Positions 2,158 to 64,000 of a DNA stretch of 64,000 nt are shown piece after piece. The position numbers were made by a program, and so were the translations under genes. The stretch's first letter is position 1, and each line of letters begins with the position of its first letter. The DNA comes from Sialis fuliginosa (taxonomy: Eukaryota; Arthropoda; Insecta; Megaloptera; Sialidae), in the NCBI GenBank assembly GCA_961205875.1, contig OY540821.1, positions 15,810,001 to 15,874,000 of the forward strand, written 5' to 3'. Below the pieces are notes generated by a model. The model searched no databases and had not been told where the DNA came from. It worked only from the letters and a program-made list of their open reading frames with translations.

Positions 2158-3050
2158 TTAATAATTTTTTATTAATATAATTTTCTCTGTTTTCAGATTT
2201 TCGTCTGTTCCGCAAGAGTATTTTTCTTTTTTCTAAAGAAATTGAAGTTATCAAGAAAAGAAATCAAAAAATACAAGAAGAATTGCTTAGCTTGAATTTG
2301 CATCGCGATAATACAGGGTTGAATTGATTTTCAATCTGTTGACAATCAATGCAACCCTGTATAATGATTATTCACATATTTTGTATTAATATAATTTTCT
2401 GTTTTCAGATTTTCGACCGTTCCGCAAGAGTATTTTTATTTTTCTGGCAAAATTGAAGTTATCAAGAAAAGGAATCAAAAAATACAAGAAAAATTGCTAG
2501 AATTTGCATCGCAATAATACAGGGTTGGATTGATTTTTAATCTGTTGACAATCAATGCAACCCTGTATAATGAGTATTCACCATATTTTTTATTAATATA
2601 ATTTTCTGTTTTCAGATTTTCGTCTGTTCCGCAAGAGTATTTTTCTTTTTTCTAACAAAATTGAAGTTATCAAGAAAAGTTTACAAGAATTACAAGAAAA
2701 ATTGCTTAGCTTTAATTTGCATCGCGATAATACAGGGTTGGATTGATTTTTAATCTGTTGACAATCAATGCAACCCTGTATAATGATTATTCATATATTT
2801 TTTATTAATATAATTTTCTGTTTTCAGATTTTCGACTGTTCCGCAAGAGTATTTTTCTTTTTTCTAACAAAATTGAAGTTATCAAGAAAAGGAATCAAAA
2901 AATACAAGAAGAACTGCTTAGTTTTAATTTGCATCGCGATAATACAGGGTTGGATTGATTTTTAATCTGTTGACAATCAATGCAACTCTGTATAATGATT
3001 ATTCACATATTTTTTATTAATATAATTTTCTGTTTTCAGATTTTCGACCA
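2158..3050 (+). repeat. Tandem array of about 212-bp units, second block
   Basis: Four full units plus a partial one. The TTTTCAGATTTTCG landmark falls near 2191, 2403, 2610, 2822 and 3033, so the period is 207-212 bp. Each unit repeats the ACAGGGTTG/CAACCCTGT hairpin. Degenerate pieces with TTTCAGAT continue to about 3325. Confidence 0.92.
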
Positions 3051-54941: not shown

Positions 54942-57322
<2,381 letters not shown>

Positions 57323-57550
57323 GTTTAATAACTTTGTGCCAATTTATTTAAATAACCATGCGGTGTTAACGTGTTTACGAATTTATAACTGAAAGTAAAC
57401 AAATAAAAACGTATTGCTTGTATTGTATGTTAGTTTATTTTTTTAATTGTACTCAGATGATAGCAAAGTCCGAAGTGAAGCACACAAATATGTATTAGCA
57501 AAATAATTTAGAAAATAATGAAAGATTTACAAATAAATGTGCCTTTTTCA

Positions 57551-57589
57551 TTTGACGCTAGACGCTAGCGTCAAATATTGTCACGTGAC
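57551..57589. promoter_or_regulatory. Candidate KLHDC4 upstream sites: palindrome and GTCACGTGAC E-box
   Basis: About 230-270 bp upstream of the KLHDC4 start codon. Arms TTTGACGCTAG and CTAGCGTCAAA flank a 3-nt spacer at 57551-57575. Five bases later a perfect 10-bp palindrome, GTCACGTGAC, occupies 57580-57589. That decamer matches the E-box/CLEAR consensus bound by bHLH-zip factors of the USF and MITF/TFE type. The sequence is clear; a role in KLHDC4 control is inferred from position only. Confidence 0.45.
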
Positions 57590-57710
57590 CTATTTTGATG
57601 CTAGCCATGCTAGCTTTCAAAATCCTGTTTGACGTTTAAATGTAAAGCAAATAATATTCATTAATTTATTAAAAAATGATTTCATTTGAGTAATTTTTGA
57701 GCACAGTAAG

Positions 57711-60700
57711 AAATAATCAATAGGTGCATCAATCATACATAGTATGTATGTCTCAACAATGACACCATGTAATAAGTAAGTATATAATAAATAATTATAA
57801 ATAAAAGGTAAGTAATTTCAATAATACAATATTTTATACCTGTGTAGATAAACAGGTAAAAAATAACTAATTATGAGCATTTATGTAGATAAATAGATGC
57901 TTTAAATTCACTCAGTTTTCAGTTTTGGAAGTATACACTGATAACATGCATTACATCAGATTTTAAATTAATTCATTAATACATACGATAACGTCTCTTC
58001 TTTGACAAAAAAACATTGCTTTAGTCGGAATGGTATCTGAAAATAATATTGAAATTTGAAAGGTACATGTGCGCCATCTAGCAAAAACTGCTTGAACTAA
58101 TAAGGTTTTGATAGTTCAAGTTTGTCTCGCTAGATGGTACAACATGTACTTTTTAAATTGTAATGTATTTTCAGATGCCATTCCGACTAAATCATTTTTT
58201 TTTGCAAATTAGAGACGTTATCGTATGTATTAGGGCATCCTAATTCCAAATATGCCTATAAAAAGTTGCACTCGGAACGATAAAACCGTTTTTTATCAAC
58301 ATTTATTTAAAAAATTTGCTTGAAATTTTTAACAAATGAAGGAAATTTAATCTGGTGTTATATATGATATCAGCGTGTCCTTTTACATATGATGGCGTGC
58401 ATAATATTTTCAAATTAAAAAAGGGTGTATCAATTAAAGTACTGAAAAACACATCCTTATTGAATTTGAAAATAATTAATACGCCATCGTATGTTATATG
58501 ACACGCTGATAACATAAATGCTAATAGATTTTAAATCAATTCACTGGTTCAAAATTTGATGAAATTTTTTAAGACAAAAGTTGATAAAAAACCGTGTTAT
58601 CGATCCGAGCGCAACTTTTTATGGGCATATTTGGAATCAGGGTGCCCTAATACATACGATAGCGTCTCTAACTCGCCAAAAAAAATTTTTCCCCAAAAAG
58701 AAACAAGGCTATAGTATGGCTTAAAAAACACTCGAAAAACACTTTTTTCGATTTTCAAATAATTAGATACGTTATCGCATGTAAAGGCATACGCTAATTC
58801 GACAATTTTTATCTGTTGTAAAATTCATCAAAGGGTTCAAAAGTTACAGCCATTTTACGACGAAAAATTGATAAAAAACAGTGATAGCGGTCCGAGCGGA
58901 ATTTTTTATCAACATTTTTGGAATCACCATGCTGTTATACATACGATAGCGTGCCTAACTCGACAAAAAAAAATTTAATCTGATGACGGCACCTTCGCCA
59001 TGGTGCAGGTGCTGTCATGTTACGTCATCAGATTAAAAATTTTTTTGTCGAGTTAGGCACGCTATCGGATGTATAACAGCATGGTGATTCCAAAAATGTT
59101 GATAAAAAATTCCGCTCGAACCGCTATCACTGTTCTTTATCAATTTTTCGTCGTAAAATGGCTGTAACTTTTGAACCCTTTGATGAATTTTACAACAGAT
59201 AAAAATTGTCGAATTAGCGTATGCCTTTACATGCGATAACGTATCTAATTATTTGAAAATCGAAAAAAGTGTTTTTCGAGTGTTTTTTAAGCCATACTAT
59301 AGCCTTGCTTCTTTTTTGGGAAAAAATTTTTTCTGGCGAGTTAGAGACGCTATCGTATGTATTAGGGCACCCTGATTCCAAATATGCCCATAAAAAGTTG
59401 CGCTCGGATCGATAACATGGTTTTTTATCAACTTTTGTCATAAAAAATTTCATCAAATTTTGAACCAGTAAATTGATTTAAAATCTATTATCATTTATGT
59501 TATCAGCGTGTCATATAACTTACGATGGCGTGTTAATTATTTTCAAATTCAATAAGGATGTGTTTTTCAGTACTTGAATTGATACACCCATTTTGAATTT
59601 GAAAATATTATGCACGCCATCATATGCAAAAGGACACGCTGATATCATATATAACACCAGATTAAAATTCCTTTGTTTGTTGAAAAATTCAAGCAAATTT
59701 TTAAGACAAAAGTTGATAAAAAACAGTTTCATCGGTCCGAATGAAACTTTTTATATGCATTTTTGGACTCAGGATGCCCTAATATATACGATAACGTCTC
59801 TAACACGATTAAAAAAATTAACTTAGTCGGAATGGTTTCTGAAAAAATTATTATTATTTTTCAGAAACCATTCCGATTAAGTCGATTTTTTTTAACGTGT
59901 TAGAGACGTTATCGTATGTATTAGGGCACACTGATTCCAAATATGCACATAAATAGTTGCGCTCGGATCGATAACATGGTTTTTTATCAAGTTTTGTCTT
60001 AGAAATTTTAGTGAAAATTTGAACCAGTGAATGTATTTAAAATCTGATATCATGTATGTTATCAGCGAGTCTTTTTACATACGATAGCGTGTCTATTACT
60101 TTCAAATTCAAAATAGATGTATTAATTATCGTACCAAAAAACACACTCTTTTTGAATTTGAAAGTAATAAACACCCCATCGTATGTAAGAACACTCGCTG
60201 ATAACATATATGATATCAGATTTTAAATACATTCACTGGTTCAAATTTTCACTAAAATTTCTAAGACAAAACTTGATAAAAAATCATGTTATCGATCCGA
60301 GCGCAACTTTTTATGGGCATATTTGGAATCAAGGTGCCCTAATACATACGATAGCGTCTCTAACTCGCCAGAAAAATTTTTTTCCCAAAAAAGAAGCAAG
60401 GCTATAGTATGGCTTAAAAAACACTCGAAAAACACTTTTTTCGATTTTCAAATAATTAGATACGTTATCGCATGTAAAGGGATACGCTAATTCGACAATT
60501 TGTATCTGTTGTGAAATTGATCAAAGGGTTCAAAAGTTACAGCCATTTTACGACGAAAAATTGATAAAAAACAGTGGTAGCGGTCCGAGCGGAATTTTTT
60601 ATCAGCATTTTTGGAATCACCATGCTGTTATACATACGATAGCGTGCCTAACTCGACAAAAAAATTTTTAATCTGATGACGTAACATGACGGCACCTCTA

Positions 60701-63700
60701 CCATATATACAGAATAAAATATTTTTTGATATTTTTGTATTCCTTATTCAAAAATACCATTTATATGTTATTTCTGTACATTTTTATATATGGTGAAGGT
60801 GCCGTCATGTTACGTCATCAGATTAAAAAATTTTTTGTCGAGTTAGGCACGCTATCGTATGTATAACAGCATAGTGATTCCAAAAATGTTGATAAAAAGT
60901 TCCGCTCGGACCGCTATCACTGTTTTTTATCAATTTTTCGTCATAAAATGGCTGTAACTTTTGAACCCTTTGATGAATTTCACAACAGATAAAAATTGTC
61001 GAATTAGCGTATCCCTTTACATGCGATAACGTATCTAATTATTTAAAAATCGAAAAAAGTGTTTTTCGAGTGTTTTTTAAGCCATACTATAGCCTTGCTT
61101 CTTTTTTGGGAAAAAATTTTTTCTGGCGAGTTAGAGACGCTATCGTATGTATTAGGGCACCCTGATTCCAAATATGCCCATAAAAAGTTGCGCTCGGATC
61201 GATAACATGGTTTTTTATCAACTTTTGTTATAAAAAATTTCATCAAATTTTGAACCAGTGAATTGATTTAAAATCTATTATCATTTATGTTATCAGCGTG
61301 TCATATAACTTACGATGGCGTGTTAATTATTTTCAAATTCAATAAGGATGTGTTTTTCAGTACTTGAATTGATACACCCATTTTGAATTTGAAAATATTA
61401 TGCACGCCATCATATGCAAAAGGACACGCTGATATCATATATAACACCAGATTAAAATTCCTTTGTTTGTTAAAAAATTCAAGCAAATTTTTAAGACAAA
61501 TGTTGATAAAAAACAGTTTCATCGGTCCGAGTGAAACTTTTTATATGCATTTTTGGACTCAGGATGCCCTAATATATACGATAACGTATCTAACACGATT
61601 AAAAAAAATTAACTTAGTCGGAATGGCTTCTGAAAAAATTATTATTATTTTTCAGAAACCATTCCGATTAAGTCGATTTTTTTTAACGTGTTAGAGACGT
61701 TATCGTATGTATTAGGGCACCCTGATTCCAAATATACCCATAAATAGTTGCGCTCGGATCGATAACATGGTTTTTTTATCAAGTTTTGTCTTAGAAATTT
61801 TAGTGAAAATTTGAACCAGTGAATGTATTTAAAATCTGATATCATATATGTTATCAGCGAGTGTTCTTACATACGGTAGCGTGTCTATTACTTTCAAATT
61901 CAAAATAGATGTATTAATTATCGTACCAAAAAACACACTCTTTTTGAATTTGAAAGTAATAAACACCCCATCGTATGTAAGAACACTCGTTGATAACATA
62001 TATGATATCAGATTTTAAATCAATTCACTGGTTCAAAATTTGATGAAATTTTTTAAGACAAAACTTGATAAAAAACCATGTTATCGATCCGAGCGCAACT
62101 TTTTATGGGCATATTTGGAATCAGGGTGCCCTAATACATACGATAGCGTCTCTAACTCGCCAGAAAAATTTTTTTCCCAAAAAAGAAGCAAGGCTATAGT
62201 ATGGCTTAAAAAACACTCGAAAAACACTTTTTTCGATTTTCAAATAATTAGATACGTTATCGCATGTAAAGGGATACGCTAATTCGACAATTTTTATCTG
62301 TTGTGAAATTCATCAAAGGGTTCAAAAGTTACAGCCATTATACGACGAAAAATTGATAAAAAACAGTGGTAGCGGTCCGAGCGGAATTTTTTATCAGCAT
62401 TTTTGGAATCACCATGCTGTTATACATACGATAGCGTGCCTAACTCGACAAAAAAATTTTTAATCTGATGACGTAACATGACGGCACCTCTACCATATAT
62501 ACAGAATAAAATATTTTTTGATATTTTTGTATTCCTTATTCAAAAATACCATTTATATGTTATTTCTGTACATTTTTATATATGGTGGAGGTGCTGTCAT
62601 GTTATGTCATCAGATAATTTTTTTTTTTGTCGAGTTAGGCACGCTATCGTATGTATAACAGCATGGTGATTCCAAAAATGCTAATAAAAAATTCCGCTCG
62701 GACCGCTATCACTGTTTTTTATCAATTTTTCGTCGTAAAATGGCTGTAACTTTTGAACCCTTTGATGAATTTTACAACAGATAAAAATTGTCGAATTAGC
62801 GTATCCCTTTACATGCGATAACCTATCTAATTATTTGAAAATCGAAAAAAGTGTTTTTCGAGTGTTTTTTAAGCCATACTATAGCCTTGTTTCTTTTTGG
62901 GGAAATTTTTTTTTTGGCGAGTTAGAGACGCTATCGTATGTATTAGGGCACCCTGATTCCAAATATGCCCATAAAAAGTTGCGCTCGGATCGATAACATG
63001 GTTTTTTATCAAGTTTTGTCTTAAAAAATTTCATCAAATTTTGAACCAGTGAATTGATTTAAAATCTATTATCATTTATGTTATCAGCGTGTCATAATAC
63101 ATACGATGGCGTGTTAATTATTTTCAAATTCAATAAGGATGTGTTTTTCAGTACTTTAATTGATACATTCATTTTGAATTTGAAAATATTATGCACGCCA
63201 TCATATGTAAAAGGACACGCTGATATCATATATAACACCAGATTAAATCTCCTTCATTTGTTAAAAATTTCAAGCAAATTTTTTAGACAAATGTTAGTAA
63301 AAAACAGGTTTATCGATTCGAACGAAACTTTTAATGTGAATTTTTGGAATCAGAGTGGTCTTATACATACGATAGCTGCTCTAACTCGACAAAAAAAATT
63401 GACTTAGTCGAAATGGCATCTGAAAAAATTATTAAAATTTAATAGGTACATGTGGCACCATTTAGCGGAACAAACTTTAACAAACATAAAGATGTTTGTT
63501 CAAGCTGTTTTTGGTAGATGGCACCACATGTACCTTCTAATTTTAATATTTGTTTCAGATGCCATTCCGACTAAATCAATTTTTTTTTGTCACACATAGC
63601 ATTTGTTAATATGTATACCTATTTATCTACACAGGTATAACATACATGTTTGTTCACTTACTGAATTTATAACATCTATTTATCTACATAGATGCTCTTA

Positions 63701-63858
63701 ATTAGTTATTTGTTACCTGTTTATCTACACAGGTTATAAAATATTGTATAATTGAAAATTACTTACCTTTTATTTATAAATATTATTATATACTTATTAC
63801 ATGGCGTCATTGTTGAGACATACATACTATGTATTATTGATGCACCTTTTGATTATTT
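57711..63858. repeat. Giant palindromic array (about 6.1 kb) with terminal inverted repeats
   Basis: The outer arms (about 57711-57905 and 63660-63858) are inverted copies (AAATAATCAA, GGTGCATCAAT, CATAGTATGTATGTCTCAAC). Between them lie six units of about 896 bp in alternating orientation with dyad centres near 58106, 59005, 59851, 60747, 61642, 62539 and 63488. Each unit contains three diverged subunits of about 300 bp sharing GATAAAAAAC, CGRTCCGAGCG, TTTTTGGAATCA and ATACATACGATAGCGT. Short frames occur on both strands only because of the symmetry. No transposase was found. Confidence 0.93.
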
Positions 63859-64000
63859 ATTGTAAAATACTTTTTATTGTATTGTGTATAATAAAAAAAT
63901 AAAATAAAACATACCATCTTGTGATTTGAATACTGAACCCTTGGGTTGCGAGGGGGTAAATACATGTGAGTTAAATTTTTTGAAAGTATTTTGAACTGAT
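63859..64000. other. Sequence right of the palindromic array
   Basis: AT-rich, cut by the window end; nothing recognised. Confidence 0.4.

Follow-up and report, generated by a model that had tools for sequence, protein, structure and literature searches.

An 8145-bp palindromic element of Sialis fuliginosa as a probable non-autonomous foldback-type PIF/Harbinger transposon

The window analyzed here, a stretch of 64,000 nucleotides from Sialis fuliginosa, hosts close to its right end a block of alternating palindromes, raising the question of what kind of locus such a structure represents. An earlier note had proposed either a foldback-type transposon grown by palindromic duplication or a locus whose transcript folds into a very long hairpin. 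The inverted symmetry itself is real. An inverted-repeat search within 57000-64000 returned 70 pairs, the longest arms measuring 794 nt (94%) and 707 nt (90%), and comparison of the block with its own reverse complement gave inverted matches of up to 3.6 kb with 86-88% identity. Both alternating kinds of dyad centre were recovered at the positions previously assigned to them, type A in the modules h0 and A, type B in module Y. The folding energy of one 751-nt Y module is -552 kcal/mol compared with a mean of -143 kcal/mol for 20 shuffles (z -55.5), and a 23-base core pattern with two degenerate positions matched the genome 441 times, its reversed control 0 times; thus, the symmetry of the block is not due to chance. 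Since each module is its own palindrome, the block is a direct tandem repeat as well, with a period of 1790-1792 bp (repeat families D4 and D5); one D4 interval measures 1693 bp, the first Y there being devoid of the insert. Readings in terms of one orientation only or of alternating orientation only were consequently dropped, both being true together. The initial description as unlike ordinary tandem satellites was overstated in view of the direct repetition. ORF scans of window and loci did not reveal any convincing transposon ORF within the core, and neither a composition profile nor a tandem-repeat scan added to the main finding.

The block had been delimited at 57711 and 63858, which proved wrong as ends of the element: relatives are alike past both points, and the whole element spans window position 57537 to window-equivalent position 65681 (8145 bp), extending beyond the window end. 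Its right part was read in locus L041 and is given in window-equivalent coordinates. The element is located between two head-to-head genes, KLHDC4-like and ARMC8, and its core follows the grammar T(hXYX)n h T', with h, X, and Y each palindromic. The features are as follows.

57534..57536, unstranded: left target-site duplication TAA; right copy TAA at window-equivalent 65682-65684, in L041
57537..57717, plus strand: left terminus (ATGTGCCTTTTTCATTTGACGCTAGACGCTAGCGTC...), 87% over 182 bp to L012:3018-3200
57708..57976, plus strand: left module T, G-type, 93.6% identical, inverted, to T'
57977..58235, plus strand: palindromic module h0, type A centre ~58106, 82.5% self-reverse-complement
58236..58660, plus strand: palindromic module X (Xa), 79% self-reverse-complement, 93.4% inverted to X at 59352
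58680..59332, plus strand: palindromic module Y without the ~98-bp central insert, type B centre ~59005, 96.9% self-reverse-complement
59352..59776, minus strand: module X (Xa, inverted), from module comparison
59820..59899, plus strand: module A (short internal form of h), type A centre ~59851, from module comparison
59920..60360, plus strand: module X (Xb), 93% palindromic
60372..61122, plus strand: module Y with ~98-bp central insert, type B centre ~60747, from module comparison and folding
61142..61566, minus strand: module X (Xa, inverted), 98.8% direct to 59352-59776
61611..61690, plus strand: module A, type A centre ~61642, 98.8% to 59820-59899
61711..62152, plus strand: module X (Xb), 95.9% to 59920-60360
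62164..62913, plus strand: module Y with central insert, type B centre ~62539, 96.7% to 60372-61122
62933..63350, minus strand: module X (Xa, inverted), from module comparison
63360..63592, minus strand: right module h0', 83.5% inverted to 57977-58235
63656..63861, minus strand: right module T', F-type, from module comparison and arm typing
63862..64000, minus strand: start of right F-type arm, continuing to window-equivalent 65681 (L041 1-1781)

The left terminus shows homology with the outermost 183 bp of one fuller copy, and the window copy lacks the remainder of the left arm; the right F-type arm contains repeats of ~267 bp and finishes in the terminus ...TCATATGAAAAGGCACCC.

The genome search suggested earlier, for like units with target duplications, revealed related copies dispersed over many chromosomes. 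The unit of copy number is a dyad-symmetric 1.79-kb unit in direct tandem, with n being 1, 2, or 3 in most of 33 loci (14 loci with a single Y module, 11 with two, 3 with three, 1 with three or more, and 4 irregular). As in foldback elements, the inverted arms are long, internally repetitive, and of different length between copies whose cores carry from one to three Y modules. Satellite DNA forms long tandem arrays confined to restricted sites; the arrays found here are short and present on many chromosomes. Growth by palindromic duplication, as formerly suggested, is thus only part of the picture: the series represents the tandem addition or removal of an already palindromic unit. C13 carries 10 of 28 elements (p 2.4e-7) within the best 40 of 443 candidates, a sample biased toward query-like copies, whose 40 rows were grouped into elements by eye. 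Comparison of monomer types showed a mean identity of 73% for types 1 and 2 and 67% for types 3 and 4 (shuffled control: mean 60%, maximum 68.5%). The remaining type pairs hardly exceeded the control mean or did not exceed it; considering this weak likeness, we do not claim descent of all repeats from one monomer.

The ends of the copies provide the link to a transposon superfamily. In the window copy, each end shows a terminus of the GGGTGCCTTTTCAT type flanked by a TAA duplication; as the left terminus reads ATGTGCC and not GGGTGCC like the right one, the left TAA depends on alignment to relatives. Most of the 33 family ends aligned exhibit the short terminal inverted repeat GGGTGCCTTTTCATGTGACGC or a close form. 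By one alignment rule, TTA or TAA (TWA) adjoins the terminus at 23 of these 33 ends, against ~3 that we estimate by chance in 70% A+T DNA. Among the ends, L060 and L066 share a common flank and are not independent. The other 10 ends are without TWA, and among eight two-ended copies six show matching TWA duplications and two unequal flanks. One end (L043) is TAC by the alignment rule; by eye, a small terminus insertion turns it into TTA, still unlike its partner. A 3-bp TTA/TAA target-site duplication defines PIF/Harbinger elements, and their short terminal inverted repeats commonly start with GG in the Medicago table, according to the accessible part of the source (PMC2213677).

Three fuller relatives (L009, L012, and L014) contain a decayed DDE_Tnp_4 remnant in both inverted arms, on either side of the core. 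Reading across one apparent intron and with X at one stop, the L012 remnant scored 45.6 bits against PF13359 (DDE_Tnp_4; cut-off 24.8); a 43-residue piece of it alone reached 20.5 bits, under this cut-off. A whole-genome PF13359 search recovered the remnant loci C6:16870388 (34.8 bits) and C6:19922435 (34.3 bits). PIF/Harbinger elements encode an IS5-like DDE transposase (PF13359) and a second, Myb/SANT-like ORF. The transposase was seen in relatives only, the window copy having no recognizable transposase sequence, and no autonomous partner emerged among the eight best PF13359 loci, which gave no tblastn match (E<=1e-3) to the L012 remnant. Based on the decayed DDE_Tnp_4 in fuller relatives and the TTA/TAA-flanked family ends, we assign the feature with high confidence to the non-autonomous foldback-type PIF/Harbinger DNA transposons. 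The earlier proposal of a foldback-type transposon is hereby strengthened, with transposase remnant, terminus, and 3-bp TWA duplication specifying the superfamily. No host function is indicated for the element.

Likeness between the arms varies among copies. Arm-arm identity exceeds the identity to every other sampled copy in 14 of 26 cases; in the remaining 12, the window copy among them, at least one other copy is as close or closer. Within the best 37 of 341 candidates, L036 matches its own mirror arm to 100% and the next full-length sequence to 87%. On the level of Y arms, the nearest neighbor lies within the same locus in 56 of 97 cases (permutation mean 3.2, maximum 11). The window copy is a chimera of two arm types, its left end being G-type and its right end F-type. 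Arm types were assigned by our own reading, with 10 of the 26 copies omitted from the arm-class comparison because one end was absent or matched too weakly for typing (L016, L022, L026, L028, L031, L032, L034, L036, L037, and L039). Recent insertion from unsampled parents that were already symmetric could alternatively account for the arm likeness.

The same core is enclosed by both arm types, G and F, and the diverged cores L031, L036, and L037 show weak T matches only and no clear G or F end. Both observations would fit a T-to-T' core that was an independent foldback or satellite-like element, landed in a Harbinger element, and was then carried along. We consider this improbable, since the symmetry in L009, L012, and L014 takes in the transposase-bearing arms, inverted on both core sides, which is not expected from simple insertion of a core. 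The stable folding of the Y module and possible read-through transcription, given the position between two head-to-head genes, would agree with a hairpin-RNA locus, in which the palindrome transcript forms long double-stranded RNA diced into small RNAs, so that the structure is kept. Dispersed copies with transposon termini and duplications account for the structure without any RNA role, and all 38 Rfam microRNA matches lie under their gathering scores and were discarded as evidence, being the expected output of a long hairpin; a hairpin-RNA locus is accordingly quite unlikely. The 1.79-kb direct tandem units, 96.7% alike across 1500 bp compared, the motif period of 266-295 bp across most of the core, and the concerted likeness inside loci are reminiscent of a dispersed satellite with higher-order repeats. 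Such a satellite, already disfavoured, is very unlikely in the face of short arrays (n from 1 to ~3) at dispersed sites and of fuller copies finishing in conserved, mostly TWA-flanked termini. An assembly artefact from mirror-image chimeric reads, as might be suspected from the arms of L015 being identical across 1200 bp, is barely conceivable, because the grammar is common to loci at many genome positions, L015 has ~0.8 kb extra in one arm only, and 25 of the 26 copies have non-identical arms.

For a foldback-type PIF/Harbinger element, a Harbinger transposase acting in trans would cut at the termini and insert the element at TWA. Core units of 1.79 kb may be added or removed when units exchange unequally or slip against each other, and copying from arm to arm, by conversion or hairpin-templated repair, may preserve the similarity of the arms within one insertion. 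Exchange between copies would yield chimeric elements, e.g., the window copy. Tentatively, each insertion might even be a self-homogenizing palindrome, in which the arms are copied onto each other and palindromic units are added or lost within the individual insertion, perhaps via a hairpin transposition intermediate. The evolution of a DNA transposon would then resemble that of a chromosome-specific higher-order satellite, and copies sharing a chromosome (e.g., C11) would be the most alike.

The closest precedents are Galileo, Tetris, and the MtPH-A6-4 elements of Medicago truncatula, compared here on the basis of the accessible portions of the respective sources. Galileo, a foldback-like element of the P superfamily in Drosophila, shares tandem repeats inside very long inverted arms, arm extension by recruiting internal sequence, arms 98-100% alike within a copy, and chimeric copies (PMC3573991, PMC4168063). 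It differs by a P-type transposase and 7-8-bp duplications from the Sialis element with its DDE_Tnp_4 remnant and 3-bp TWA. Tetris from Drosophila virilis is likewise a non-coding foldback element, its internal tandem repeat number differing between alleles and its internal repeats having supplied building blocks for satellite arrays; it generates 8-10-bp duplications and has 220-bp tandem repeats inside each TIR (PMC4079207), whereas in the Sialis element the repeat unit forms a palindrome of its own and extends across the centre. MtPH-A6-4 elements belong to PIF/Harbinger, with 3-bp TTA/TAA duplications and non-coding members hosting 2-35 repeat copies, sometimes opposed at both ends, as well as internal inversions; their repeats measure 60 bp, and the accessible text describes neither palindromic modules of kilobase size nor inverted arms with a transposase (PMC2213677). 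The macro-dyad satellites of Tribolium madens resemble the core in their higher-order repeats, palindromic units, and larger mirror symmetry, but form multi-megabase (peri)centromeric arrays instead of dispersed single elements with transposon ends (PMC13081366, as far as accessible).

The accessible sources report foldback architecture for Galileo, a P-type element, and for Tm1, a Mutator-type element. In the open-licence literature, judged mostly by titles and abstract starts, no foldback PIF/Harbinger element with such a core was recognized. The Sialis elements represent a PIF/Harbinger family with foldback architecture in which all core modules are palindromic and the copy-number unit itself is symmetric. 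Their dispersed copies with one, two, and three units form a natural series for studying the growth of large palindromes, the reasons why both arms of an insertion frequently remain similar, and the seeding of satellites by transposons.

The earlier note had described two kinds of dyad centre alternating through a palindromic block at 57711..63858 of the window, which spans C13:15810001-15874000 in a genome of 392 Mb with 20 contigs. Reading the block and comparing it with itself confirmed both kinds where they had been placed, and the self-comparison revealed inverted arms of up to 794 nt at 94% identity or, with gaps, of up to 3.6 kb at 86-88%. The palindromic block is real. The ends proposed for it are not the true ends, since similarity among relatives continues past them.

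In the relative L012, the left arm terminus reads TAA|GGTTGCCTTTTCATGTGACGC; the terminal 182 bp of this copy recur in the window at 57538-57717 with 87% identity. The module T follows directly, so the window copy lacks the greater part of its left arm. The right end lies beyond the window and reads ...GCGTCATATGAAAAGGCACCC|TAA in L041, the fetched continuation of this non-autonomous, foldback-type PIF/Harbinger copy.

Features of the window and its continuation (coordinates prolonged beyond 64000)
14-433 and 2164-3048: a 212-bp repeat in tandem, one array at each place (matching at 90-91%), perhaps another mobile element
57322, minus strand: start codon of a Kelch-repeat gene (Kelch domains by search), which we take to be KLHDC4-like
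57537-65681: the element, 8145 bp, TAA at both sides
about 60700-60790 and 62490-62585: ~98-bp insert in the middle of the second and the third of the three Y modules
about 65035-65152 (L041:1135-1252), minus strand: 5S-rRNA-like stretch in the F-type arm
66217: probable start of a gene for ARMC8 (7nsc as the best match in the PDB, E 1e-90)

The distance from start codon to start codon is 8895 bp, and because 8145 bp of this is element, the insertion sits within an otherwise ~750-bp head-to-head spacer.

Mapping the modules of the split block onto 32 fetched relatives and the window yielded a single core grammar, in which T, h, X, Y and X are followed by optional (h X Y X) units and then by inverted h and T. 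The form of h depends on its place, the long h0 standing beside T and the short A inside the core. Identity of the modules to their own reverse complement amounts to 86-89% for A, 81-82% for h0, 74-79% for Xa, 91-93% for Xb and 93-97% for Y. The core unit recurs directly in tandem with a period of 1790-1792 bp, two units being 96.7% identical across the first 1500 bp; as this symmetric unit repeats head to tail, the core is a direct tandem repeat and an alternating palindrome at once. A 15-bp motif appears on both strands at 266-295 bp spacing, extended to 387 where an insert lies in Y, with 404 as the first plus-strand interval; allowing up to 3 mismatches, only 2 matches occur in the remaining 57.5 kb of the window. 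The ~98-bp insert is itself partly an inverted repeat and is lacking in the first window Y, and both Y forms were also observed in other copies.

Copies differ in their number of Y modules, read by eye from the module table of 33 loci.

Y modules per core
One Y, 14 of 33 loci: L012, L014-L016, L018, L019, L022, L024, L026, L027, L029, L031, L037, L040
Two Y, 11 of 33: left block of L009, L011, L013, L017, L020, L021, L025, L028, L030, L032, L034
Three Y, 3 of 33: window, L010, L023
At least three Y: L033 (cut by the fetched end)
Irregular, 4 of 33: L035, L036, L038, L039

Cores typically measure about 2.4-2.7, 4.2-4.5 or 6.2-6.3 kb; L012, L013, L031 and L037 are among the exceptions. An additional X A without Y in L012 and L040, and an additional X h in L029, match what would be expected of exchange between X modules.

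Under a single alignment rule, TTA or TAA precedes the terminus at 23 of 33 ends (L060 and L066 share a flank and are not independent); among the ten others (L011, L020, L043, L049, L056, L057, L059, L064, L069, L070), the terminus itself is poorly preserved in L057, L059 and L070. The duplications match in six of the eight copies with both ends seen, as TAA in the window, L012, L014 (C7:9668144) and C12:11058337, and as TTA at C6:19921580 and in a 276-bp miniature copy (L063, C3:13246991-13247266); the flanks of C7:19166710 and of the composite L009 do not match. With both termini and TTA on each side, the miniature indicates that the family also makes MITEs. The composite, comprising L009 with L042 and L043, covers ~11 kb at about C13:6868845-6879847 with unequal flanks. 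An F-type arm abuts X position 236 in it, likewise in L033 and L034.

This arm type carries ~267-bp tandem repeat copies (L041:344-1039, 92% identical), also present in further C13 and C10 copies. The core of its 5S-rRNA-like stretch reads ...GGTTAAGC...TTGGATGGGTGACC; it scores 17.3 bits against RF00001, under the gathering score of 38 (E 0.22, 161 bases searched), and the whole of L041 gave no Rfam match at E<=1.

The two arms of one copy are often nearly identical: they show no difference over 1200 bp in L015, 99.7% identity in L036 and 99.3% in L021, and the outer arms of L009 share 99.35% over 1545 bp. Of 26 copies, 14 have arms that match each other better than they match any further copy sampled, with a margin below half a percent in some, e.g., L014, L017 and L020; in the other 12, window included (91.4 vs 92.6), they are not mutually closest. 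Arm identity averages 95.9% in single-type copies (n=12) versus 89.5% in chimeras of the arm types G and F (n=4; left block of L009, L024, L025 and the window; Mann-Whitney p 0.0045), 10 of the 26 copies having been dropped as untyped. For L036, a genome-wide search (best 37 of 341 candidates scored) ranked its own mirror first at 100%, then matches of 87% over full length or at most 94% over part of the core; after L036 itself, the next five elements all lie on C11, its own chromosome. For 56 of 97 Y arms, the nearest neighbour belongs to the same locus, where permutations gave a mean of 3.2 and a maximum of 11. Divergence averages 3.0% for partner arms, 3.4% inside a locus and 5.7% from one locus to another. 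Judged from these comparisons, the likeness of arms and Y modules is compatible with homogenisation inside insertions; alternatively, recent insertion from symmetric parents may account for the arm likeness.

A transposase in decay is present in the arms of fuller copies. Against PF13359 (DDE_Tnp_4), a piece of 43 residues reaches 20.5 bits, under the 24.8 cut-off, the score rising to 29.5 bits across an apparent intron and to 45.6 with X at one stop as well. Genome-wide, at least 146 PF13359 matches were found (best 150 of 189 candidates scored), including the remnant loci C6:16870388 and C6:19922435, and many others among the matches listed have open frames. A mobiliser was sought among the eight best loci, none of which resembles the remnant at E<=1e-3. 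Among the matches listed, DDE_Tnp_4 is strikingly concentrated on C14 at about 2.4-8.1 Mb, with many open frames.

A 23-base core pattern matched the genome 441 times, versus 0 for the reversed control. In contig order, 93 of the first 100 matches fall on C1-C8, which places the remaining 348 on C9-C20; these are the smaller contigs, so far as their lengths are known. Matches are sparse on the largest contigs (8 on C1; none on C2 among the matches listed) and denser on smaller ones.

In the open-licence literature searched, mostly titles and the beginnings of abstracts, foldback elements with repetitive arms are represented by the P-type Galileo (PMC3573991, PMC4168063) and the Mutator-like Tm1 (PMC3169594), and a Medicago PIF/Harbinger subfamily has opposite-orientation repeats at both ends (PMC2213677). 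No description of a PIF/Harbinger element that is of foldback type and has a palindromic core was recognised in these texts.
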